DNA of 52,086 bases from Oscillospiraceae bacterium (GTDB taxonomy: Bacteria; Bacillota; Clostridia; Oscillospirales; Ruminococcaceae). The DNA lies in contig JAFXZM010000040.1 in assembly GCA_017541275.1 (NCBI GenBank), positions 1 through 52,086 of the forward strand, in the 5' to 3' direction. The position numbers were made by a program, and so were the translations under genes. Within the stretch, counting starts at the first letter, position 1, and every line of letters begins with the position of its first letter. The notes under the pieces are model-generated. The model made no database searches and was not told the DNA's origin. It was given only the letters and a program-made list of their open reading frames with translations. This document shows positions 14,034 through 31,175 of this stretch, piece by piece.

Positions 14034-16688
14034 ATGGATTTGAGACAGAAAAAGATCCGGAGACTCAGCGCAGCCGTGCTTTCAGCAGTTCTGACGGCAA
14101 CGTCATCGCCGTTTTCAGGCGCGATGCAGGCGAATGCGCTCGTCACGGATCCCGCAGGCGAATATGACAACTTCGCCAAGGCGCTCCAGTATTCGCTGCA
14201 TTTCTATGACGCGAATATGTGCGGGCCGGAGGTCGAGGCAAACAGTCGCTTCCAATGGCGCGCAAACTGCCATACCTATGACGCTGCTGTGCCGCTCGTA
14301 CCGATGGACATGGACACTGACCTGACCAAGCGCACCGGCACCAACCTGAGCGCCGATTTCATCAAGGCAAACTATGACATTCTCAACACCGGCACGGAGG
14401 AAGGCACGGTCGATGTTTCCGGCGGCTATCACGATGCAGGCGACCATGTGAAATTCGGTTTGCCGGAGGCATATGCCGGTTCGACCGTTTCGTGGGGCTA
14501 CTATGAATTTCCTGAAGCCTATGAGGAATGCGGTCAGAAGGAGCATGTCGAAACGATCATCCGTTACTTCTGCGACTACTTCATGCGCTGCACCTTCCGT
14601 GATAAGAACGGCGACGTCGTCTGCTTCTGTTATCAGGTCGGCGACGGCGACGTCGATCACTCCTACTGGCAGCTCCCGCAGAACGATACCATGGCGCGTA
14701 CCGCATGGTTCGCGACGCCGGACAACCCGACAACCTGCAATGTCGCGGAAACTGCTGCCTGTCTCGCAATCAATTATCTGAACTTTAAGGATTCTGACAA
14801 GGAATATGCCGAAAAGTGTCTGGATTACGCAACCGCGCTCTTTGATTTTGCTACAAAGAACGACAAGGACATCGCAGATACCGCGCAGGGACCCAAGGGC
14901 TATTACCGCTCCAGCAAATGGGAAGATGACTACTGCTTCGCGGCCTGCTGGCTCTATTTGATTTCCGGCGATCAGACCTATATTGATCTGGCGCTCCCGC
15001 TCGTGGATTACTATGCATCTCCGAGCTATGTCTACTGCTGGAATGATATGTGGAACGGCGTCGGGCTGCTGATGGGCAGAATCTCTGATACCTATAAATC
15101 CAAAACGACCTATTCCGCAGAGGATAATCCGAAGGGGCTTACCGATCTTGCAATGGACTACATCACGGCGAACAAAAAGAACAAGTATGAAGCCATCGAC
15201 TTCTGGGGCGAATGTGCCAAGGCTTACACCGGCTATATGACCGGAAAACTCGGCAAGATCTCGCCGCAGGGCTATTTCTGGATGGATACATGGGGCTCCT
15301 GCCGCTACAACACCGCGGCACAGTTCACCATGCTGATCTATGACAAGTACAACAAGGGCAAGGACAAATATACCGAGGACGCGCATGTCGCATACCCTGA
15401 TTACACCTTCTCCGATTGGGCAAAGGGTCAGATGGAATATATCCTCGGCAAAAATGATATCACCTATCTCGAAACTGTAAAAGAAAACCAAGGCAAGGAT
15501 GCGGACGGCGAATTTGTCAGAGAAGGCGCTGAGCACGGCCCGCGCTGCTTCCTCGTCGGCTTCGATGAACATTCCGCTGCATATCCGCATCACCGCGCAT
15601 CGTCCGGCCTCACTAAGTGTGAGGATACGGATCAGCAGCTCTATGTGCTCTTCGGCGCACTCGCTGGCGGTCCCGACCCGCAAGACGGTCACCGTGACAT
15701 TACGAAGGACTGGATTTACAATGAGGTCACGATCGACTACAACGCAGCCTGCCCGGGCGCAGCAGCAGCGCTCTATCTGAGATACAAGGATCAGTATGAG
15801 CAGTCGGTCACACCGGACTTCCCCCCCGCAGATGACGGCGGCAGAGGCGCAGGCGGCTCCGACGGCGAGGGTGCCGGCGGCAACGCGATCTGGGTCGAGG
15901 CGCTGGGCATGGATGACCTGAAGGGCAATGCCGGTGTCACCAAAATGTCCATCATGGTCAAGTCCACCATGGCAAAGGCTCCGGAAAATATGACCGTCCG
16001 CTATTACTTCGACAAGTCTGAGATCAGCAATCTCTCGCAGATTCAGGGCAGCATCATCTCCGATCAGGTCGCAACGGAGGCTGCACCTGCAAAATCCTCG
16101 CTGACCGGCCCGGTCGTCTGGGAAAAGGACAGCAAATACGCCTATATCGAACTGGACTGGGGCGACTATAACTTCGCAAACTGCGGCAAGAAAGTTCAGC
16201 TCACCCTCGGCGTGTACTACGGCGAAAACTGGGATCCGACCAACGACCCGAGCTATCAGGGACTCAAGATGTTCACAGTTGACAGTGCATTCTACGGCAC
16301 CGGCAACGAGGAACGCACCGACAATATCTGCGTCTACAGCAACGGCGTGCTGATCGGCGGTATTGAGCCGGACGGCACAGAACCCGTCAAGGAAACTACA
16401 CCGACCGTGACGACGACAACCTCGACCACAACTACGACAACCACGACTTCATCGACCGACCCGAAGCTGAAAAAGAAGCGCGGCGATGTTGACAACAACG
16501 GAGAAGTCAATATCATGGACGCAGTTCTGCTCGCACGCGCAGTCGGCGATGACCCGACGCTCCTCGATTCGGAGTATACCGATCAGGGCAAGATCAATTC
16601 AGAATGCAACAATGACGGAACGATTGACATCGCTGACCTGACGGCACTGATGAGACATCTCGCGAAAATTGAGATATTTACGGACTGA
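14034..16688 (+). CDS. GH9 cellulase with CBM3 and dockerin
   Basis: An 884-residue secreted cellulosomal endoglucanase or processive cellulase. A signal peptide covers about residues 1-36. The GH9 (alpha/alpha)6 domain spans about 40-590, with the catalytic base motif DAGD at 134-137, the conserved HHRASSG, and the proton donor E564 in NEVTIDYNAA. A CBM3-type beta-sandwich (about 620-780) is linked by a Gly/Asp-rich stretch. A Thr linker (about 785-810) leads to a C-terminal dockerin (816-880; GDVDNNGEVNIMDAVLLAR and CNNDGTIDIADLTALMRH). GH9 followed by CBM3 is the layout of processive GH9 cellulases. Translation start is clear. A GC-rich hairpin after the stop is only a weak terminator, so read-through into the next gene is possible. 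Confidence 0.93.
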   Translation: MDLRQKKIRRLSAAVLSAVLTATSSPFSGAMQANALVTDPAGEYDNFAKALQYSLHFYDANMCGPEVEANSRFQWRANCHTYDAAVPLVPMDMDTDLTKRTGTNLSADFIKANYDILNTGTEEGTVDVSGGYHDAGDHVKFGLPEAYAGSTVSWGYYEFPEAYEECGQKEHVETIIRYFCDYFMRCTFRDKNGDVVCFCYQVGDGDVDHSYWQLPQNDTMARTAWFATPDNPTTCNVAETAACLAINYLNFKDSDKEYAEKCLDYATALFDFATKNDKDIADTAQGPKGYYRSSKWEDDYCFAACWLYLISGDQTYIDLALPLVDYYASPSYVYCWNDMWNGVGLLMGRISDTYKSKTTYSAEDNPKGLTDLAMDYITANKKNKYEAIDFWGECAKAYTGYMTGKLGKISPQGYFWMDTWGSCRYNTAAQFTMLIYDKYNKGKDKYTEDAHVAYPDYTFSDWAKGQMEYILGKNDITYLETVKENQGKDADGEFVREGAEHGPRCFLVGFDEHSAAYPHHRASSGLTKCEDTDQQLYVLFGALAGGPDPQDGHRDITKDWIYNEVTIDYNAACPGAAAALYLRYKDQYEQSVTPDFPPADDGGRGAGGSDGEGAGGNAIWVEALGMDDLKGNAGVTKMSIMVKSTMAKAPENMTVRYYFDKSEISNLSQIQGSIISDQVATEAAPAKSSLTGPVVWEKDSKYAYIELDWGDYNFANCGKKVQLTLGVYYGENWDPTNDPSYQGLKMFTVDSAFYGTGNEERTDNICVYSNGVLIGGIEPDGTEPVKETTPTVTTTTSTTTTTTTTSSTDPKLKKKRGDVDNNGEVNIMDAVLLARAVGDDPTLLDSEYTDQGKINSECNNDGTIDIADLTALMRHLAKIEIFTD
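16387..16460 (+). repeat. Thr-codon (ACN) linker repeat in GH9 gene
   Basis: A low-complexity run of ACN codons encoding a Thr-rich interdomain linker, as in other Ruminococcus cellulases. Antisense reading gives a spurious poly-Val frame. Confidence 0.85.
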
Positions 16689-19654: not shown

Positions 19655-19683
19655 TTGACAAATCAGACAGAATCGCTTATAAT
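19655..19683 (+). promoter_or_regulatory. Consensus sigma-A promoter of Csm6-like operon
   Basis: A perfect TTGACA (19655-19660), 17 bp, TATAAT (19678-19683). The first ten spacer bases resemble those of the promoter at 42455 (both read TTGACAAATCAGA). Confidence 0.92.
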
Positions 19684-19763
19684 AGAATCGGTATTTTTGT
19701 CTGATACGGAATGTATCCGGAAAACTGCCTACATCTCAGCCAATGAACGAAGGGAGCGATTCC

Positions 19764-21206
19764 ATGAAAATTCTGTTTTCGCCTGTCGCAGATGCCGGCG
19801 CCGAAGCCGCGCTGCATGCCTGCTGCTGCAATGTGCAGCCTGAGCTTGTTTATTTGTATCTTCCGGCCGGAACCGGGCTTGCCGAGCCGCTGTATGATGC
19901 GCTCAGCAGCGAATATTCGGTTCGCGTGTTTGAGCGTAATGCAATCGCACAGAACCCCGCAGAGGATGTGCTGCTGGCCGATATGAGCAGTGTCCTGACG
20001 GAGATTCGCCGTAGCAATCCGGAGGCGGAGATCTATCTGGATACCACTGCCGGAACCGAGGAAATGCAGAATGCGATGATCGACCTGATTACCGCGACCG
20101 GGCTGAATCTTCTGCCGGCACTTTCGGCGGAGGCAGGTCTGTCCGGGGAGGCGCCGGCCGATACGCCCTTCGATGCGCCCTCCGATGCGCCGGCCGATGC
20201 GGATATTCCGATGAACACGGATGCAGAGGCGCCTGCTGATGCTCCGGAGGAAGCAGCCGGCATGCCGGAGAATCCGGAAGAACCGGATGCACCGGCGGTT
20301 GTACTGCCGGAGGAAGGGGAACCTCCCGCGGCAGAGCCCGAAGCAGCGAATGCCGTTTCGGCGGCAGACGTTGAAAAGCTGCTGGCAGAGCAGACCGAAA
20401 CAGTCACGGCTTCGGTTACGGCATCCGTTACAAAAGCCCTGACCGCACAGCAGCTTTCGGCACTGATCGACGCCTATGATTATTCCGGTGCGCTGAATCT
20501 GGCGCGCAGTGCCGGTGATGCGGTTCCGCCGCAGCTTTCGGCGCTTCTGGAGGCTGTCGTTCAGCGGAGCCGCGGCAGATTCATGGAGGCGCAGCAGGCA
20601 TGCAGAGCATGCGGACAGGCAGCGCTGATGCCGGATGCATCACTGACTGCCGAATACTGCCTGACCCTCAGCCTGTATCTGAAGCGGCAGGATTATACCG
20701 GCTTTCTCCGTGCGCTCCCGCCGGTTCTGATTGAGCTTCTGATTGCCGCAATCCGTACAAAGTTCAGTATGGATATCACTCAATATATGATTTTCGGCAG
20801 CAGAAAATGGGATCACAGCAAGCTGGTCATGGGGCAGATGGCCGGCAAATTCAAGGAATCGTATACCTATCACCAGAAACCGAAGCCCGGCAATCTCGGT
20901 GTTTTTGTGACAACGGCGAATCTGTCAAACCTGATCGAAAATCTGGTTGTGCCGCGGAAGGATGCACAGATGATGCTCGATACGCTGAAGCTGCGGCTTG
21001 ATATCGAGGAAAAGACCCGTGCGCTGGCATCGTTTACGCTGCGCGGCGCCACGGCACAGGATATTCAGGCAGCGTGCGGCCATACGCCGGAGGAGCTGCT
21101 TCAGATGATTCTGAATTATGCACGGAATTACACGGATATCTCCCTGAGCGACGAGTATCTGCGCTCCTATCAGACGATAAATGAGGCATTGAAGGCGATG
21201 CTCTGA
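19764..21206 (+). CDS. Csm6-like CARF protein with degenerate HEPN domain
   Basis: A 480-residue cytoplasmic protein. Residues 1-120 match the CARF domain of type III CRISPR Csm6 ribonucleases: MKILFSPVAD at the start, ELVYLYLP at 27-34, and DTTAGTEEMQNA at 93-104, which fits the ligand-binding NxSSGTPQM loop. Residues about 121-200 are an acidic Pro/Ala/Glu-rich insertion. Residues about 228-480 look like the Csm6 helical plus HEPN region (ALIDAYDYSGAL, then FLRALPPVLIELL). Where active Csm6 has RNxxAH, this protein has RALASF (R419 to F424), so the catalytic His is missing. Known Csm6 senses cyclic oligoadenylate and cuts RNA. Here I infer at most ligand sensing. No CRISPR array or cas gene is in the window. 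The ATG at 19764 is placed by GAAGGGA; an in-frame ATG at 19743 lies before it. Confidence 0.7.
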   Translation: MKILFSPVADAGAEAALHACCCNVQPELVYLYLPAGTGLAEPLYDALSSEYSVRVFERNAIAQNPAEDVLLADMSSVLTEIRRSNPEAEIYLDTTAGTEEMQNAMIDLITATGLNLLPALSAEAGLSGEAPADTPFDAPSDAPADADIPMNTDAEAPADAPEEAAGMPENPEEPDAPAVVLPEEGEPPAAEPEAANAVSAADVEKLLAEQTETVTASVTASVTKALTAQQLSALIDAYDYSGALNLARSAGDAVPPQLSALLEAVVQRSRGRFMEAQQACRACGQAALMPDASLTAEYCLTLSLYLKRQDYTGFLRALPPVLIELLIAAIRTKFSMDITQYMIFGSRKWDHSKLVMGQMAGKFKESYTYHQKPKPGNLGVFVTTANLSNLIENLVVPRKDAQMMLDTLKLRLDIEEKTRALASFTLRGATAQDIQAACGHTPEELLQMILNYARNYTDISLSDEYLRSYQTINEALKAML

Positions 21207-24287: not shown

Positions 24288-27200
24288 ATGAAGCATAAAC
24301 TTACGGCTGCTTTGTTATCTGCAATGATGCTGACAACTGTATGCAATCCGCTGCCGGACGGCATGACACGGATGATTCCGGTGTCTGCGGTCACGGTGCA
24401 GGAGGACGGGGAACCGCTTGAAACCGATCTGGAATACGGCGCGTTCATTTACTCCAAATACGAAGACCACATCACAATCACAGGCTATAGCTTCCGGTCG
24501 GAAAATGACGAGGAGCCGCCCGCAGAAGTGACTGTCCCTGCGAAGATTGACAGACTGCCGGTTACGGTCATTGGCGAGGACGCGCTCTCGTGGCATGAGG
24601 AATGGACGAGCCTGACGCTGCCTGACAGCATTACTGTGGTTGAAGACCGCGGTCTGAGCGGCAACAGTAACCTTACAGATTTGAAGCTGTCTGCAAAACT
24701 GAAAACGATCGGGTATCGTGCCTTTGAGGATGATGCATCTCTCACGGATATTACCATTCCGGACAGCGTCACAGCGCTCGGCTCGGAGGCGTTCTGGTGC
24801 TGCGATGCACTGGAAACAGTGACGGTCGGAAAGGGTGTCACGAGCTTTGAAAGCAATGTGTTTGCAGAGTGTCAGTCGCTGAAAAGCGTTACGGCTGCGT
24901 GTCCGGTGATCGGAGAAAATGCATTCAAGGATTGCCCTGCTCTGACGGAACTGACGCTGACCAAAGGCGTAAAAACAATCGGGCGGTCTGCTTTCTGCGG
25001 ATGCGAGGCACTTGCAGATGTGACGCTTCCGGAAAGCGTTGAAACCGTTTCTGATTATGCTTTCAGCGGCACTGCTGTGACGGAATTTGTCATTCCGGAT
25101 ACGGTAAAGGAGCTTGGCGAAAATATTTTGAAAGACTGCGCTGCATTGGAATCCGCAAAAGTCGGCAAGAATGTATCAGAGCTGCACGATAACATTTTCA
25201 GCGGCTGCGAGGCGCTGGAATCTGTTGAACTGTCCTGCAAAGCGCTTCCTGACAGACTGTTTCAAAACTGTTCATCCCTGAAAACCGTAAAGCTGAATTC
25301 CGGCATAGAAGCAATCGGCGAGTATTGCTTTGCATCCTGCCCTGCACTTAGCAGCATTGCCATACCGGATTCTGTCACCGAGCTTGGCGGAAGCCTGTTT
25401 GTGGACTGCACAGCGCTTGAAACTGTCACACTTCCGTCCGGACTGACCGAAATCCCCGGCAGTCTGTTTGACGGCTGTTCCGCGCTGACTGCCCTGACAA
25501 TTCCGGAGGGTGTGGAAACGGTCGGGTCTCAGGCGTTCAGAGACTGCGCAAAACTGGAATCGCTCACCTTTTCTGAAAGTCTCCAGAGTATTGACCGCGA
25601 TGCTTTTTCCGGATGCACCGGACTGAAAAAGCTTGATATTTTAAGCCGCTCATGCACAATCGACACAAGCGGGAGAGGCGATATGAGCGATGTATCACCG
25701 GTCGTTTACGGCTATCGCAATACCGGTGCGCAAGCCTTTGCGGAAAGGTTTGATTTGGAATTTGTCCCCTATGACCCGGAGGAGACCACCACAACCGTAA
25801 CCACCACCACAACCACGACTACAACGACCACCACTACGACAACAACCGCCGCAACCACGACAACGACCGCTGCGCCAACCACGACCACGACTACCACGAC
25901 AACAACCGTTCCTGCAAAGCCTGCCGCAGAGTTCTCGATCGAAAATGTGGAATGCGGAGCCGGTGAAACCGTACCTGTCAAGATCAGAATGACCGCTGCG
26001 GTGCCGGTTGGTGCATATTCATTGAACCTTACCTATCCCAGCAGCTTTGAGCTGGTCATGGCAAATGAAACAAACCCGAAATACAGCACAGACAGCAAGT
26101 TTATTTATTCTTTCATTGTTTCTGAACGATGCTCTGAATACAGCAGTCGGGTCTCAGTCATTGGTATGTCAACTGCCGGCGTCAAGAACGAGGTCATCAC
26201 CCTGTATCTGACCGTACCGAAAAACGCTGCGGTCGGTGACAGCTATTCGCTGGAACTCGATGTGAAACAAGCCGCAATGAACGGTGAAACATTATCTGCA
26301 TCTGCAAAGGGCGGCACGATCAGCATTACCGATCATCCCGTATATACGACTACGACAACAACAAAAATGACTACAACTGCAACGACCACTACAACGACCA
26401 CGACCACTACAACAACAACGACAACGACCACGACTACGACTACAACGACAACAACCCAAACAACGACTACCACAACTACGACCGCAACAACAGATACAAC
26501 TGCTGTCAGTGTTTCCGGAAACTATGAATATGTCATCAATCCGGACAAAAAGAGCGTAACAATCGTCAATTATCACGGTAAAAAGATGGGCTATGACGGA
26601 ACAATGCCGGGCGATGACGGAACAATGCCGGATGAGGACATTGTAATTCCCGAAAAACTGGGCGGACTGCCGGTTACTGTCATTGGAGAAGGAGCATTTG
26701 CAGGTGCTGAAAGCAACAGAACCATAACCTTCCCCGACACGATCACAGAAATTCAGTACGGTGCGTTTTCTTACGGCGGGCTCGGCGGTACTGTCAATCT
26801 GCCGAAGAATCTGAAAACAATCGGAAACTATGCATTTGATCACAACTGGGTAGAAGCATATACCTTACCGGATGGCTTGACCACGATCGGTTCGCAGGCA
26901 TTCAGGTTAAATCTGGCGCTTACAACGATAACGATTCCGGCTTCTGTTACGGCAATCGGAGAATATGCTTTTGATTCAGATGAATACAGACCATCATCAT
27001 ATGAAAAACTGACAATCTGCGGCTATTCCGGAACTGCGGCAGAAGAATTTGCAAAAACAAACACGAATCAGTTTGTGAGCTTAGATCAGCCGGGGACTGC
27101 TACAACTACAACCGTTACGACTGCATCAACAACTACGACAGCAACCCAAACCACGACCACTACAACCGTCACCACCACCACGACAACAACCACCACGACA

Positions 27201-27428
27201 ACCACAACAACCGAGCCGTCCAAGCCGCTGATGGGCGATTACAACCTTGACGGTGAAGTCACCGTTGCAGACGCTGTGCTGCTCTGCCGGTTCATCTCCG
27301 AGGATGATACACTGGAAGAAAAGGTGAATCAGGCAATCACGCTGGAAACCGCCGACTTCGACAAGGACGGTCTGCTGACGGTTGGAGATGTCATGAAGCA
27401 TCTGCTCAGTCAGAAAACCAAAGCATAA
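24288..27428 (+). CDS. LRR-cohesin-LRR-dockerin protein, putative adaptor scaffoldin
   Basis: A 1046-residue secreted protein. After a signal peptide (about 1-34) come BspA/TpLRR-type leucine-rich repeats (about 85-460, units of the form LTxITIPDSVTxIGxxAFxxC), a Thr linker (500-541), a probable cohesin (546-682), a second Thr linker (about 686-745), a second LRR block (about 750-925), a third Thr linker, and a C-terminal dockerin (982-1042; GDYNLDGEVTVADAVLLCR and DFDKDGLLTVGDVMKH). The cohesin call rests on the nine-strand pattern: GAGETVPVKI near the start, GAYSLNLTYPSSFELV, ITLYLTVPKNAAVGDSYSLEL and GGTISI at the end. One protein that both binds a dockerin and carries one would act as an adaptor, like ScaC of R. 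flavefaciens. LRRs may bind proteins or surfaces. The cohesin is divergent and needs a profile search. Confidence 0.75.
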   Translation: MKHKLTAALLSAMMLTTVCNPLPDGMTRMIPVSAVTVQEDGEPLETDLEYGAFIYSKYEDHITITGYSFRSENDEEPPAEVTVPAKIDRLPVTVIGEDALSWHEEWTSLTLPDSITVVEDRGLSGNSNLTDLKLSAKLKTIGYRAFEDDASLTDITIPDSVTALGSEAFWCCDALETVTVGKGVTSFESNVFAECQSLKSVTAACPVIGENAFKDCPALTELTLTKGVKTIGRSAFCGCEALADVTLPESVETVSDYAFSGTAVTEFVIPDTVKELGENILKDCAALESAKVGKNVSELHDNIFSGCEALESVELSCKALPDRLFQNCSSLKTVKLNSGIEAIGEYCFASCPALSSIAIPDSVTELGGSLFVDCTALETVTLPSGLTEIPGSLFDGCSALTALTIPEGVETVGSQAFRDCAKLESLTFSESLQSIDRDAFSGCTGLKKLDILSRSCTIDTSGRGDMSDVSPVVYGYRNTGAQAFAERFDLEFVPYDPEETTTTVTTTTTTTTTTTTTTTTAATTTTTAAPTTTTTTTTTTVPAKPAAEFSIENVECGAGETVPVKIRMTAAVPVGAYSLNLTYPSSFELVMANETNPKYSTDSKFIYSFIVSERCSEYSSRVSVIGMSTAGVKNEVITLYLTVPKNAAVGDSYSLELDVKQAAMNGETLSASAKGGTISITDHPVYTTTTTTKMTTTATTTTTTTTTTTTTTTTTTTTTTTTTQTTTTTTTTATTDTTAVSVSGNYEYVINPDKKSVTIVNYHGKKMGYDGTMPGDDGTMPDEDIVIPEKLGGLPVTVIGEGAFAGAESNRTITFPDTITEIQYGAFSYGGLGGTVNLPKNLKTIGNYAFDHNWVEAYTLPDGLTTIGSQAFRLNLALTTITIPASVTAIGEYAFDSDEYRPSSYEKLTICGYSGTAAEEFAKTNTNQFVSLDQPGTATTTTVTTASTTTTATQTTTTTTVTTTTTTTTTTTTTTEPSKPLMGDYNLDGEVTVADAVLLCRFISEDDTLEEKVNQAITLETADFDKDGLLTVGDVMKHLLSQKTKA
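25782..25910 (+). repeat. ACN (Thr) repeat, linker 1
   Basis: A run of mixed ACA/ACC/ACG/ACT codons encoding a Thr linker between the first LRR block and the cohesin. Similar tracts lie at 26346-26505 and 27097-27213 in the same gene. Confidence 0.9.
26346..26505 (+). repeat. ACN (Thr) repeat, linker 2
   Basis: The longest Thr-codon tract of the window, between cohesin and second LRR block. Synonymous codons are mixed, which argues against a recent slippage expansion of one unit. Confidence 0.9.
27097..27213 (+). repeat. ACN (Thr) repeat, linker 3
   Basis: A Thr-codon tract joining the second LRR block to the dockerin, ending in EPSKP. Confidence 0.88.
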
Positions 27429-27441
27429 CAGACAAACGAAA

Positions 27442-27473
27442 GCAGCCGGTATGCCTTTGCGCATGCCGGCTGC
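27442..27473 (+). terminator. Hairpin after scaffoldin-like gene
   Basis: GCAGCCGGTATGC (27442-27454) pairs with GCATGCCGGCTGC (27461-27473, one G-T pair) around a CTTTGC loop. No long T tract follows directly. It is nearly identical to the hairpin at 24023-24048 upstream of the same gene. Confidence 0.65.
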
Positions 27474-27581
27474 CTGTCGATAAAGCGTTTCCGACGGATG
27501 AAACGGCGGGAGCTTTATGTTATAAATGCATCGCAGATACCTCATGAAAAGTCGCTGCTGCGCTTTTTTTCGTAAAAATGC

Positions 27582-27610
27582 TTGACATTCAGATGAAAGT
27601 ATGATATAAT
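27582..27610 (+). promoter_or_regulatory. Consensus sigma-A promoter of pilus operon
   Basis: A perfect TTGACA (27582-27587), 17 bp, TATAAT (27605-27610), then about 35 nt to AAAAAGGAG. The preceding GCTTTTTTTCG stretch may end upstream transcription. Confidence 0.92.
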
Positions 27611-27655
27611 AATAATACGTATAAACATCCATTCATACAATTAACAAAAAGGAGC

Positions 27656-28318
27656 GTGTTGCGATTGTCGCAGGCAGAGAAGCCCGAGGAAAAGCAGCAG
27701 GTTCTGCCGGATCATACAGCGGAACAGCAGGAAAGTGCGGCATCCGTACAGGATGACACGCCCGCCGAACAAGCTGAAGAATCCGAAAAGACCGGAGAGG
27801 ACGCACATGCCGATTCCCCGAAAAAGAAAAAACGTACTGCAAAGTCCTACGCAATCAGCTTCTTTCTCAAGCTCGCCGTTACGGCGGCAGCCGCATGGGC
27901 GCTGCTGACTTTTGTTGCGGGTATCTGCATCTGCCACACGAATTCTGCATATCCGATGATAAAAGACGGCGACTTTTGTCTCTTTTACCGCCTCGATACG
28001 CCGTCGCAGGGCGATGAGATTGTCTACCGCGTGAACGGTGAGCTGCGCTTCGGCCGCGTCATCGCCAAGGCGGGTGATTCTGTCGAAATCTTCAGCGACT
28101 ATATCACTGTCAACGGTCTCGGCCTGTATGAAAACACGGTTTATCCGACCTCACCGCAGGGCGCTTCGGTCAGCTTTCCGTATACCGTGCCGGATAAGTG
28201 CATCTTTGTCCTGAATGACTACCGGAGCGATATCAATGACAGCCGCACACTCGGCGGCATCCCGCTCAGCGATGTCGAGGGAACTGTCATTTTTATCATG
28301 CGCAGACGCGGAATATAG
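27656..28318 (+). CDS. Signal peptidase I homologue, SipA-like (pilus locus)
   Basis: A 220-residue membrane protein. An acidic N-terminal tail (about 1-55) and a basic KKKKR patch precede one membrane segment (about 66-92). The outer domain has the S26 layout: S97 in NSAYPMIKDGD aligns with the catalytic Ser box. In the next box FGRVIAKAGD, glycine (G133) occupies the position of the catalytic Lys of KRVxGxPGD. Streptococcus pyogenes SipA, required for FctA-type pilus assembly, has the same Lys-to-Gly change and also lacks the Ser. I infer a pilus assembly chaperone, or a peptidase with altered activity. The start is uncertain: GTG 27656 is given, while TTG 27659 is better spaced from AAAAAGGAG. 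It is the first gene of the pilus operon. Confidence 0.8.
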   Translation: MLRLSQAEKPEEKQQVLPDHTAEQQESAASVQDDTPAEQAEESEKTGEDAHADSPKKKKRTAKSYAISFFLKLAVTAAAAWALLTFVAGICICHTNSAYPMIKDGDFCLFYRLDTPSQGDEIVYRVNGELRFGRVIAKAGDSVEIFSDYITVNGLGLYENTVYPTSPQGASVSFPYTVPDKCIFVLNDYRSDINDSRTLGGIPLSDVEGTVIFIMRRRGI

Positions 28319-28333
28319 GAGACAGGAAACAAA

Positions 28334-28357
28334 ATTGAAACGGGTATTCAATTTTTT
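28334..28357 (+). terminator. Weak intergenic attenuator-like hairpin
   Basis: ATTGAA (28334-28339) with TTCAAT (28347-28352) and then five T, between the SipA-like gene and the pilin. It is too weak for full termination but could bias expression. Confidence 0.35.
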
Positions 28358-28387
28358 ACGGAAACATAATTCTAGGGAGGAATCATT

Positions 28388-29677
28388 ATGAAGTTCAGAA
28401 GAATCATGTCGTTTGCTGCTGCTGCCGCAATGCTGGCATCTGTGGCAGCACTTGCGCCGATGCATGTCAGCGCTGCAAATTATGCAGAAGCAAAATATGC
28501 AACAGGCGGCAAGCGTACATTCAACAAATACCTTGTTATGGACAGCAATGTGACTGTTCCGACGGCAACCTTCAACTATTCAATCGCGGCGGGCGAAGAA
28601 GTCAAATATACCGAAGAAGGCGCAACGGGTACAGTTGCTGCATATGAAGGACTTGATGCGGACAAAATTACAATCTCTGCTGCGGATTTTACTGCTTCCA
28701 CTGCGACAACAGACGGTGCAGCGGATGACGGCATTACAAATGATACGTCTAAGAAATATGCGTCATCTACGTTTGAACTGGATTTTACCGAAGTCAAGTT
28801 CCCGGAGCCGGGCGTATACCGCTATGTGCTGACGGAAACCGGCGCCGGCGAAACGGATGATCTCGGAGCAGGTATCAGCCATGTCGGCAACTATCAGAAA
28901 ACACTGGATGTCTATGTCATTGATACGGACGGTACTCTGAGCGTCGCAAGCTATGTCCTGTACAACAGCGTCATTTCAAATGCACCGGCGCTTGCCGCTG
29001 ATGAAGTTGCTCTGGATTCAAAGGTTGACCGCACAGATGCGAATAATGCCGCCAAAACGGACGGCTTTGTCAATGAGTATTCCTCCCAAGATCTGACGAT
29101 CGGAAAGAAAGTGACCGGTAATCAGGGCTCGAAGGATAAATATTTCGCGTTTACCGTAACATTTACCGGCGCAGCCGGCGCAAATATCACGATTGACGCG
29201 AGTGCTTCCAACTTTGAGACAGCACCGACAGCAAACAGCGCAACCATTTATACTGCGGAGGATATGGCAGCAGCAAACGCTAAGGATGAAAACGAAGGCG
29301 TTACCGGTCAGCAGCTTGTCATCGGCAGCGACAGCGCAGAGTATACGTTCTACCTCCAGAACGGTCAGTACATCACCTTCCTCGGCCTGCCCAAGGGCTC
29401 CGACTATGAAGTGACCGAAGCCAAGGAGGAATATACCCAGACCCCGACTGATGCAGAGAATACAATCACAGCAGGTGATTTCACGCTGAACGGCGCCCAG
29501 AGCGGCACAATTAACGATGCCGATGTGAGAACCGGCTTCATCAACACAAAGCAGGGTACGATCCCGACCGGCGTTCTGCTCTCTGTCGCAGCGCCTGCAT
29601 GCATCGGTGTTATCGTGCTCGGCGGCATCATCTTCCTGCTGGTCAGAGGCCGCAAAAGACGTACTGAGGAAGATTAA
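28388..29677 (+). CDS. Major pilin, FctA/Spy0128-like, two isopeptide domains
   Basis: A 429-residue cell-wall pilin. The signal peptide is about 1-30. Domain 1 (about 35-232) has Lys47 in FNKYLVM, an acid E150 in YVLTETG and Asn229 in DGFVNEY. Domain 2 (about 234-388) has Lys240/241 in LTIGKKVTGN, an acid around 342-345 in YEVTEA and Asn386 in TGFINTKQG. These are the positions expected for two self-formed Lys-Asn isopeptide bonds as in S. pyogenes Spy0128. The sorting signal is TIPTG (391-395), a membrane segment and a basic tail RGRKRR, fitting class B sortases that use xVPTG-like motifs. CTAGGGAGG precedes the ATG. The next gene, 6 bp on, is the sortase. Confidence 0.9.
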   Translation: MKFRRIMSFAAAAAMLASVAALAPMHVSAANYAEAKYATGGKRTFNKYLVMDSNVTVPTATFNYSIAAGEEVKYTEEGATGTVAAYEGLDADKITISAADFTASTATTDGAADDGITNDTSKKYASSTFELDFTEVKFPEPGVYRYVLTETGAGETDDLGAGISHVGNYQKTLDVYVIDTDGTLSVASYVLYNSVISNAPALAADEVALDSKVDRTDANNAAKTDGFVNEYSSQDLTIGKKVTGNQGSKDKYFAFTVTFTGAAGANITIDASASNFETAPTANSATIYTAEDMAAANAKDENEGVTGQQLVIGSDSAEYTFYLQNGQYITFLGLPKGSDYEVTEAKEEYTQTPTDAENTITAGDFTLNGAQSGTINDADVRTGFINTKQGTIPTGVLLSVAAPACIGVIVLGGIIFLLVRGRKRRTEED

Positions 29678-29683
29678 TCAGCC

Positions 29684-30382
29684 TTGCTGAAATTCTGGAA
29701 ACAACTGAATATTCTCTACGAGCGGCTGCTCCTGATTGTGCTGTGTCTGATCTTCGGCATCGTCCTCTGGTGTATGTACGACAACTGGTATGTCTACAGC
29801 TATACACTGGATGACAGAGTGCGGAAGTATAAGCCGGGTACGTCCGGTGCGGTCGCTTCGGAGGATTCACCGATTCTTGACGATATGGCTGCATGGATTA
29901 CCATTGACGGCACCAATATCGACTATCCGGTGATGCAGGGAACGGACAATGTCCGCTACCTCAATACAAACCCGTTCGGTGAATACGCGCTCTCCGGCAG
30001 CATCTATCTCGACTGCCGCAGCAGCAAGGATTTCTCCGACCCGTATTCGCTTGTCTACGGACATCATATGGAATACGGAAAAATGTTCGGTGCGCTGGAC
30101 GATTTTCTTAATCCGTCATATCTGGCACATCACAAAACCGGCACGCTCATTATCGGAAAAAATGCCGCAGCGACTTATCCGCTGGAGGTGTTTGCCGCAA
30201 TGTGCGTCAGCTCGGATAATAATCTCGTGTTTAACCCAGAGCAGAACGGAATTCGCGAATATATCGCAGAACAGACCGGGTATCCCGTGCAGACGCGCGG
30301 CGAAAACATTATTGCGCTCTCAACCTGTGCCGAGGGCGGCAGCAGCGCAAGAATCATCGTGTTCTGCTTTATTCTGAACTGA
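29684..30382 (+). CDS. Class B sortase (pilus)
   Basis: A 232-residue transpeptidase, anchored by an N-terminal membrane segment (about 14-33), that would cleave the IPTG-type motif of the pilin and join subunits or attach them to the wall. The triad is visible: H127 in VYGHHM, C215 in LSTCAEG and R223 in ARIIVF. Start is TTG at 29684, 6 bp after the pilin stop, with GAGGA upstream. SrtB-type enzymes are the pilus polymerases of FctA-type (FCT-3-like) loci, which fits the gene order here. Confidence 0.93.
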   Translation: MLKFWKQLNILYERLLLIVLCLIFGIVLWCMYDNWYVYSYTLDDRVRKYKPGTSGAVASEDSPILDDMAAWITIDGTNIDYPVMQGTDNVRYLNTNPFGEYALSGSIYLDCRSSKDFSDPYSLVYGHHMEYGKMFGALDDFLNPSYLAHHKTGTLIIGKNAAATYPLEVFAAMCVSSDNNLVFNPEQNGIREYIAEQTGYPVQTRGENIIALSTCAEGGSSARIIVFCFILN

Positions 30383-30401
30383 CTGAAGGGAGGGAATGCA
30401 A

Positions 30402-31175
30402 ATGCTTCACAGACGGCTGACAACCGGCATTACGGCATTTTGCACGCTCTCTCTTTTTCTTTCTCCGGGAGCTGTGTGCAGCGCGGCAGGCTATGAGCCG
30501 GTTCAGGCGGAAATCCCCGTTGCCTGCGTTGTTGAGAACAGTCAGCGCGAACACACCTTCCGTATCGAAATGGAATCTGTTTCGGCGAACTGTCCGACTC
30601 CAAGCCCGGATACTCTGACTGTCTCCGAAGGCAAAACGGAGCAGTTTACCGTCACGCTTGATGAACCCGGCACCTTCCTCTACAGGGTTTTTGAGATTTC
30701 CGGCACGGATGATTCGTTTGAATATGACACGACCGTTTACAATGTGACCGTCTATGCAGAGCAGGACGGGGATGGCAGCCTCATCTGGGCTGTTTCTGCA
30801 AAAATCGAAGGCTCGGACAAAAAGCCTGAGCGCATCGAATTTTTGGATAAAAGCAATGAGGAAACACAGACAACAGCGACCGAAACATCTGTGACAGAAA
30901 CCGTAACGGAAACAACTACGGAAAGCACAACTGCTCTGACTACAACCGAGGAAAGTACCACGCAGGCGGTAACGACAGATACAACGGAACGCACAACTGC
31001 ATCCGCAAGCAGGCTGATCGACCGGATCAACGACGTGCTGACCGGCGATTTTACACCGGTTCGGCTGATGTTTACGCTGACATTTGCTGCCGCAGGTGTT
31101 GCGCTCGTGACTGGATTACTCCGGAAAAAGAAGCGCGATGACACTGACAGCGACGAGCCGGACACGGATCTGTAA
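30402..31175 (+). CDS. Minor pilin-like surface protein
   Basis: 257 residues. A signal peptide (about 1-28) is followed by one pilin-like domain (about 33-155) with the FctA pattern IPVACVVENSQREHTFRIEME and TFLYRVFEISGTDDSF...YDTTVYNVTVYAE. A Thr/Glu-rich stalk (about 160-205) leads to a C-terminal membrane segment and basic tail (RKKKRDD). The sorting region reads VLTGDFTP, a poor match to LPXTG-like motifs. It would serve as pilus base or tip subunit. The ATG at 30402 is better spaced from GGGAGGG than the one at 30396. It is the last gene of the pilus operon. Confidence 0.78.
   Translation: MLHRRLTTGITAFCTLSLFLSPGAVCSAAGYEPVQAEIPVACVVENSQREHTFRIEMESVSANCPTPSPDTLTVSEGKTEQFTVTLDEPGTFLYRVFEISGTDDSFEYDTTVYNVTVYAEQDGDGSLIWAVSAKIEGSDKKPERIEFLDKSNEETQTTATETSVTETVTETTTESTTALTTTEESTTQAVTTDTTERTTASASRLIDRINDVLTGDFTPVRLMFTLTFAAAGVALVTGLLRKKKRDDTDSDEPDTDL

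Follow-up and report, generated by a model that had tools for sequence, protein, structure and literature searches.

The window (the whole stretch analysed, 52,086 nt) is contig 65 of a draft genome of 2.04 Mb that is 75.6% complete. An open, intact reading frame on its forward strand encodes a relative of Csm6 (Table 1). Translation likely begins at the second of two in-frame ATG codons, because GGGAG sits 7 nt upstream and the alignment of orthologues begins at MKIL. Residues are counted either in the 480-residue protein that starts there or in the 487-residue ORF from the upstream codon, R419 of the first being R426 of the second. A scan of the window found no terminator downstream of the gene.

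Table 1. Features of the Csm6-related gene, in window coordinates
Feature	Position	Strand	Detail or basis
Promoter-like site TTGACA-N17-TATAAT (12/12)	19655..19683	+	First base 109 nt before ATG
Probable Shine-Dalgarno sequence GGGAG	19752..19756	+	Sequence upstream of ATG
Gene of HEPN-inactive Csm6 relative	19764..21206	+	480 aa from ATG 19764; another in-frame ATG upstream at 19743
Degenerate CARF (N-terminal part of Csm6 CARF), segment length 127	19764..20144	+	PF22208 17.0 bits; site table
Former ligand loop DTTAGTEEMQ	20040..20069	+	Varies among orthologues
Acidic Pro/Ala-rich low-complexity linker, 95 aa, net charge -23	20145..20429	+	Replaces the C-terminal CARF segment with the adenine-contacting Arg
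6H and HEPN half, strongly conserved	20430..21203	+	PF22206 and PF09659 over cut-off
Conserved block I337-N400 (487-residue count), QYMIFGSRKWDHSKL...AGKF...YHQKPKP...VTTANLSNLIEN	20751..20942	+	Orthologue alignment
Dead catalytic motif RALASF (R-x4-H in canonical Csm6)	21018..21035	+	Alignment with canonical proteins

Domain content of the encoded protein

The sequence-only reading had described a stand-alone Csm6-like protein with its CARF domain kept and its HEPN active site lost. Profile searches make the homology to Csm6 certain: the Pfam profiles of HEPN (PF09659, 56.9 bits, cut-off 23.4, E 3e-15) and of 6H (PF22206, 37.4 bits, cut-off 23.4, E 2e-9) both match over their cut-offs, and the PADLOC profiles return CARF-HEPN/Csm6, in agreement with Pfam. 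The match to the TIGR02672 equivalog is highly significant (135.1, E 3.5e-39), yet it stays below the cut-off of 150. The weak part is the CARF domain, and here the description overstated the case: PF22208 reaches just 17.0 bits (cut-off 27.5), with an alignment confined to positions 9-57 of its 106, whereas the intact sister protein from the same genus (G569a) scores 91.9 bits over positions 1-105, and the canonical protein of G035 scores 88.1. Among the nine scanned of the 13 proteins that form a clade with the window protein (see below), two barely exceed this cut-off (30.1 and 28.9), four fall below it and three have no match. The window protein is a Csm6 homologue and yet, judged by the defining features compared below, is outside the Csm6 enzyme family.

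The comparison set of canonical Csm6 began with 13 full-length candidates and was reduced to ten by leaving out G601, for which the ORF retrieved was the wrong one, G767, which is truncated ahead of the motif, and G030, which yielded no ORF. In EiCsm6, T11 touches the scissile phosphate and R173 the adenine, with T11 and R167 as the equivalents in StCsm6', as reported in the available text of PMC7101355 and PMC10702470. T11 is present in 9/10 canonical proteins and in 0/13 clade members (Ser in one, a gap in five). R173 is present in 10/10 and 0/13, respectively, in the sequence alignment, although its column is less certain than that of T11 because the gaps of the linker adjoin it. The contact sites N10, E80 and Q116 were left out because they vary among the canonical proteins too. 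Other CARF positions persist in part of the clade, namely D12 (9/13), N109 (8/13) and G113 (8/13). The ligand loop singled out by the sequence-only reading is indeed present in the window protein; in the clade it takes the forms DTTAGT, NASSAS, NTLGGS, NQFGGS, HTDSAP, NVFSAT and NVFSGT. The pocket for cyclic oligoadenylate (cOA), as far as the aligned residues define it, is no longer intact in the clade.

In canonical proteins the segment before 6H spans 41-47 residues and carries N-R-C or a similar motif near its end, including the adenine-contacting Arg. The same position in the clade holds 52-128 residues, of which 58-81% are Glu, Asp, Pro or Ala, with a net charge of -8 to -50. An acidic Pro/Ala-rich insert had been noticed from the sequence, and it is there; rather than separating two intact halves, it stands in the place of the last CARF segment before 6H.

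The HEPN framework was said to be kept around a catalytic motif that reads RALASF, and both points hold: PF09659 is over its cut-off, R419 is followed by ALASF, and R-x4-6-H occurs nowhere in the 6H-HEPN half. The window protein is a HEPN fold, by profile only, that lacks R-x4-6-H. The same check in the orthologues indicates that the loss is fixed in the clade. At the aligned site R-x4-6-H is found in 0/13 clade members and in 10/10 canonical proteins; the His, present in all ten of the latter, is replaced in 13/13 by Tyr (11) or Phe (2), and the position of the Arg is held by Arg (8) or Lys (5).

Distribution, CRISPR context and promoter

The gene is present in 13/30 genomes of the genus, the window's own included, and was not found in the other 17; it is therefore not essential. 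A family sample of 197 genomes gave three matches outside the genus (G035, G147 and, at L005, G059), of which the first two are canonical Csm6 whose motif is intact. TIGR02672 matched six genomes, besides the window's own, in a sample of 394 from the order. Five of these matches exceed the cut-off, are canonical and were all included in the comparison; the sixth, in G530, is a C-terminal piece only, with the motif intact, and was kept out of the canonical comparison. This piece (L045:9339-9767, forward strand) has 142 aa, reads RNLAAH at the motif and lies beside three CRISPR-like repeats. An alignment scan of named species genomes returned 12 loci, all of this clade and labelled Ruminococcus, Oscillospiraceae, Clostridia or Clostridiales, several of them from rumen, omasum, pig or horse faeces; they lie on contigs equal in length to those of the 12 other carriers. 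Single-protein scans of species-genome contigs and of viral contigs gave no match, nor did a scan of viral contigs with the clade alignment; such scans seek short conserved peptides, so that distant relatives can be missed. The window protein had no match in 72,556 plasmid and 50,697 phage records. Within the collections searched, this apparently repurposed, non-catalytic variant of Csm6 is seen solely in this genus.

In a tree rooted at midpoint, the 13 proteins form one clade (100/99), and the distant canonical proteins place G569a, an intact Csm6 of the same genus and the only one in this role, as its sister and nearest canonical relative. G569a reads RNLAAH at the motif and is encoded by the last gene of an operon with cas10, csm2, csm3, csm4, csm5 and a cas6-like gene (39.2 bits, cut-off 58.65). 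The operon (L039:8722-16241, reverse strand) is of type III-A, and a CRISPR repeat array accompanies its intact Csm6. Its genome, G569, encodes on another contig a dead clade protein as well. Twelve of the 13 clade loci are joined in one network by common neighbour genes, with at least two per link, to which the G569a locus is unlinked; the thirteenth locus, in G592, lies on a 3.9 kb contig. The network therefore points to one ancestral chromosomal region with rearrangements. Three groups of the RqcH tree (G575 with G567/G572/G568/G581; G585/G591/G582; G593/G569) recur in the HEPN tree, where G575 joins its group with weak support (74/85). To explain the patchy presence of the gene, five gains or losses are required on the RqcH tree (26/30 genomes and 11/13 carriers). 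By sequence, inheritance of the gene is chromosomal and vertical.

The statement that there is no CRISPR array or other cas gene holds for the 52 kb of the window, where no array was found, the 12 other proteins scanned gave no PADLOC match and no type III genes were seen at the locus; matches to Cas1 and Cas10 are likewise absent from the contig. The statement fails for the genome, where a type I-E locus and its eight-spacer array lie on another contig. This locus (contig 64, L123:163-8041) comprises cas3, cas8e, cas11e, cas7e, cas5e, cas6e and then a cas1e ORF; the last has 164 aa, matches only the first half of Cas1e and directly precedes the CRISPR array, in which the spacing is 61 nt. Type I systems are not known to produce cyclic oligoadenylate.

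Sources of the messenger were also sought across the genus. Neither TIGR02578 (Cas10/Csm1) nor the palm-domain profile PF22335 matched in the window's genome, a draft 75.6% complete. TIGR02578 was over its cut-off in 1/30 genomes, G569, with one weak match in the non-carrier G574, and it did not match in 12/13 carriers. PF22335 was over its cut-off (27) in 3/30, the only carrier being G569; the non-carriers G573 (27.9 bits), G588 (27.3) and G188 (20.9) gave weak matches. A SMODS cyclase, which would offer CBASS as a source, was found in none of the 30 genomes. Draft completeness limits each single absence, and less so the pattern across 13 carriers.

A promoter-like site of the form TTGAC(A/T)-N17-TATAAT lies upstream of 13/13 genes, with 12/12 matching positions in 12 of them and 11/12 in one, its first base falling 65-109 nt before the ATG. 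The 265,757 bp of clade loci hold 27 sites with 12/12 matches (spacer 16-18), of which 12 are these promoters. Scored outside the hexamers, the best of 53 other promoters is that of the type III-A operon of G569 (8.7; the next 0.7, the mean -20.5), in a post hoc test that rests on a single type III-A locus and on a score trained on the clade's own promoters (10.9-46.3). This hints that the gene kept the promoter of a cas operon or shares control with one. The spacer string GACAAA occurs at the same offset in six distinct promoters of the 13. The promoter of the G569 operon (L039:16302, reverse strand) is the sole one among 55 others to match GACAAA at 6/6 positions. Codon bias of the window gene (0.701, against 0.625-0.770 in 16 other window genes) is unremarkable and is no proper test of expression.

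Constraint on the two halves of the protein

The two halves of the protein evolve in opposite ways in canonical Csm6 and in the clade. CARF identity exceeds 6H-HEPN identity in 45/45 canonical pairs (means 0.42 and 0.24) and in 1/78 clade pairs (means 0.36 and 0.53). Clade pairs are closer kin than most canonical pairs, and pairs of canonical proteins from the same genus are therefore the fair control; two such pairs have CARF/HEPN identities of 0.60/0.42 and 0.67/0.41. Among eight clade pairs listed, the most extreme reach 0.48/0.88 and 0.33/0.86, in near-identical pairs the two values almost coincide (0.94/0.96 and 0.93/0.96), and the window protein and its nearest orthologue give 0.79/0.84. 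In eight close pairs chosen from the 78, dN/dS of the 6H-HEPN half is 0.055-0.288, values that are rough because several dS are near or above 1. It is below that of CARF in 7/8 pairs, in one of them barely (0.160 against 0.163), and the order is reversed in the pair G568-G581. All 13 clade ORFs are intact. These patterns show that the clade protein is under purifying selection and that the part of value is the dead HEPN domain with 6H. By the same comparisons, the decaying half in the clade is the CARF domain and not HEPN.

The 6H-HEPN half has 49 invariant columns in the clade. Of these, 37 are identical in the active sister G569a, and 27 occur in at most one of nine other canonical proteins. 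Much of the conserved surface therefore predates the loss of catalysis and was frozen afterwards. Net charge of this half is +1 to +7 in 10/13 clade members, -4 to -6 in G585, G591 and G582, and +1 to +5 in the ten canonical proteins; the clade is no more basic.

The sequence-only reading is thus borne out in 13/13 members as regards a stand-alone Csm6 relative with a lost HEPN motif. It took the sensor to be the retained half, and in this respect it has to be turned around, the conserved half being the dead HEPN. Most likely, the retained function lies there and not in the sensor.

Function and competing explanations

The explanation preferred here, with a probability of about one half, is that a single takeover of a type III-A-like Csm6, in a gut and rumen genus resembling Ruminococcus, led to what is now a stand-alone, non-cutting HEPN protein unlinked from cOA. 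The RNase motif was lost by replacement of His with Tyr or Phe, and gating by cyclic oligoadenylate would have been lost as well. The 6H-HEPN half may still dimerise, and RNA may be bound without cleavage by the Arg or Lys of the former active site in concert with the aromatic residue and the conserved block; a protein partner in place of RNA is less likely. The acidic linker, presumably flexible, may compete with RNA for that surface, and expression from the gene's own consensus promoter would be constitutive. The protein would then probably be a domesticated, RNA-binding HEPN protein that neither cuts nor answers to cOA. We infer RNA binding because HEPN RNase sites form at the interface of two subunits, a positively charged residue persists there, an aromatic residue replaces His and inactive HEPN proteins have been proposed as nucleic-acid binders. 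A survey of the superfamily considers HEPN domains without conserved charged and polar residues to be likely inactive nucleic-acid binders (PMC3710099, in the text available), a sentence that applies loosely because the clade domains keep charged residues; Csm6 has a 'Yes' in what appears to be the motif column of its table. Against RNA binding, the 6H-HEPN half does not exceed its canonical counterpart in positive charge and is net negative in one subclade. The persisting CARF positions, the part of the conserved surface that is older than the loss of catalysis and the 17 genomes where the gene was not found also weigh against the preferred explanation. A fuller version, in which the gene kept a promoter like that of type III-A operons and its product is a constitutively made, genus-specific regulator that binds RNA, with a dead HEPN dimer as its framework and an acidic linker that is possibly self-inhibiting, is put forward tentatively and may well be wrong.

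Two other explanations give the dead HEPN domain different work, and both are unlikely. In the first, the protein is a dominant-negative subunit that pairs with an active Csm6, spoils the composite HEPN site and so limits the toxicity of Csm6. The joint presence of a dead and an active Csm6 in G569 fits this, as do the 37/49 invariant 6H-HEPN residues identical in the active protein. However, Cas10/Csm1 is matched in only 1/13 carriers, and the target would therefore usually be missing from the same genome. In the second, the protein remains a nuclease whose catalytic residues have moved, H377 paired with an invariant Arg being one example. H377 is invariant in 13/13 and present in G569a, and in HEPN1 of Csm6-2 the R and H lie 73 residues apart in what is nevertheless an RNase, according to the portion available of PMC11229360. 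However, H377 faces alignment gaps in most canonical proteins other than G569a, and since that sister has it next to a normal R-x4-H, H377 is no substitute that arose for the lost His. Matches to R-x4-6-H away from the aligned site do occur in G592 and G575 and are not common to the other clade members.

Still less probable is the proposal of the sequence-only reading, in which the protein either senses cyclic oligoadenylate and has a new output or acts as a sponge to buffer this messenger. A profile of the 13 clade proteins matches EiCsm6 with residues 1-125 aligned (E 1.9e-16), so the N-terminal CARF part is recognisable, and besides the persisting D12 and Asn109 the loop keeps Gly-Thr in five members (the window, G592, G568, G581 and G572) and Thr in six. 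However, T11 and R173 are gone throughout the clade while nearly all canonical proteins keep them, the loop varies, the linker replaces the end of the CARF domain and CARF is the faster half. The lack of TIGR02578 in all carriers but one, the absence of SMODS cyclases and the lack of phage and plasmid matches weigh against it too. A cOA sponge or ring nuclease would be expected to have an intact pocket and to be carried by a phage, a plasmid or a type III locus, and the window protein shows neither feature by sequence and by the searches above. A functionless, decaying relic of a lost type III-A locus would fit the resemblance to the G569 operon promoter (first of 53 others) and the patchy presence in 13/30 genomes, and is largely refuted by the low 6H-HEPN dN/dS, the 13 intact ORFs and the conserved promoter.

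CRISPR effectors are usually judged by cutting; in this clade of 13 the nuclease motif has disappeared and the sensor erodes, and the most conserved part is the dead nuclease half. Should the protein bind RNA or a partner without cutting, the clade would clearly exemplify the takeover of a signalling effector of type III systems for a non-CRISPR role. Matches to Csm6 profiles in Cas10-free genomes are also not simply to be counted as defence. Among the papers listed in literature searches, mainly open-access, none dealt with a HEPN-dead, CRISPR-free Csm6.

Known systems resemble the clade in part. Csm6 of type III-A (TIGR02672; PF22208-PF22206-PF09659; EiCsm6 6tug and Csm6' 8pcw, which we take to be StCsm6') has the same order of CARF, 6H and HEPN, of which 6H and HEPN are recognisable in the clade. 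The clade differs from it in the loss of the catalytic His and of the residues that contact cA6, in the acidic linker that replaces the end of CARF, in the stand-alone chromosomal gene with its own promoter and in the opposite pattern of conservation. Csm6-2 (CARF-HEPN-CARF-HEPN) is likewise a divergent Csm6 with one unusual HEPN domain; unlike the clade, it belongs to type III-D loci and cleaves RNA, with cA6 as the reported activator (PMC11229360, available portion); a title from 2026 names cA5 (PMC13187428). RtcR provides a precedent for a divergent CARF domain outside CRISPR with an RNA ligand. It differs in being an activator of the sigma54 type with AAA+ and HTH domains, neither of which was found by Pfam in the window protein, and its CARF domain serves to bind tRNA fragments, whereas that of the clade is the decaying half (for RtcR, as reported in the accessible text of PMC7790460). 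Inactive HEPN proteins such as Swt1 are like the clade in having kept the HEPN fold and lost R-x4-6-H, and have been proposed as RNA binders in the part available of PMC3710099; they differ in having no CARF/6H ancestry.

The neighbour genes examined are ordinary, differ between species and gave no functional lead. In the window, a large LRR protein of the BspA type is encoded at 24288-31175 with long codon repeats of the ACC/ACA type, and is followed by genes for a signal peptidase, a DUF7601 protein, a sortase and an FctA-like protein, in what looks like a surface or pilus cluster. A GH9 glycoside hydrolase with a dockerin is encoded at 14034-16688, two genes upstream of the RqcH end of the locus, and the orthologue in G591 is flanked by a GH11 protein with a sub-threshold dockerin match.
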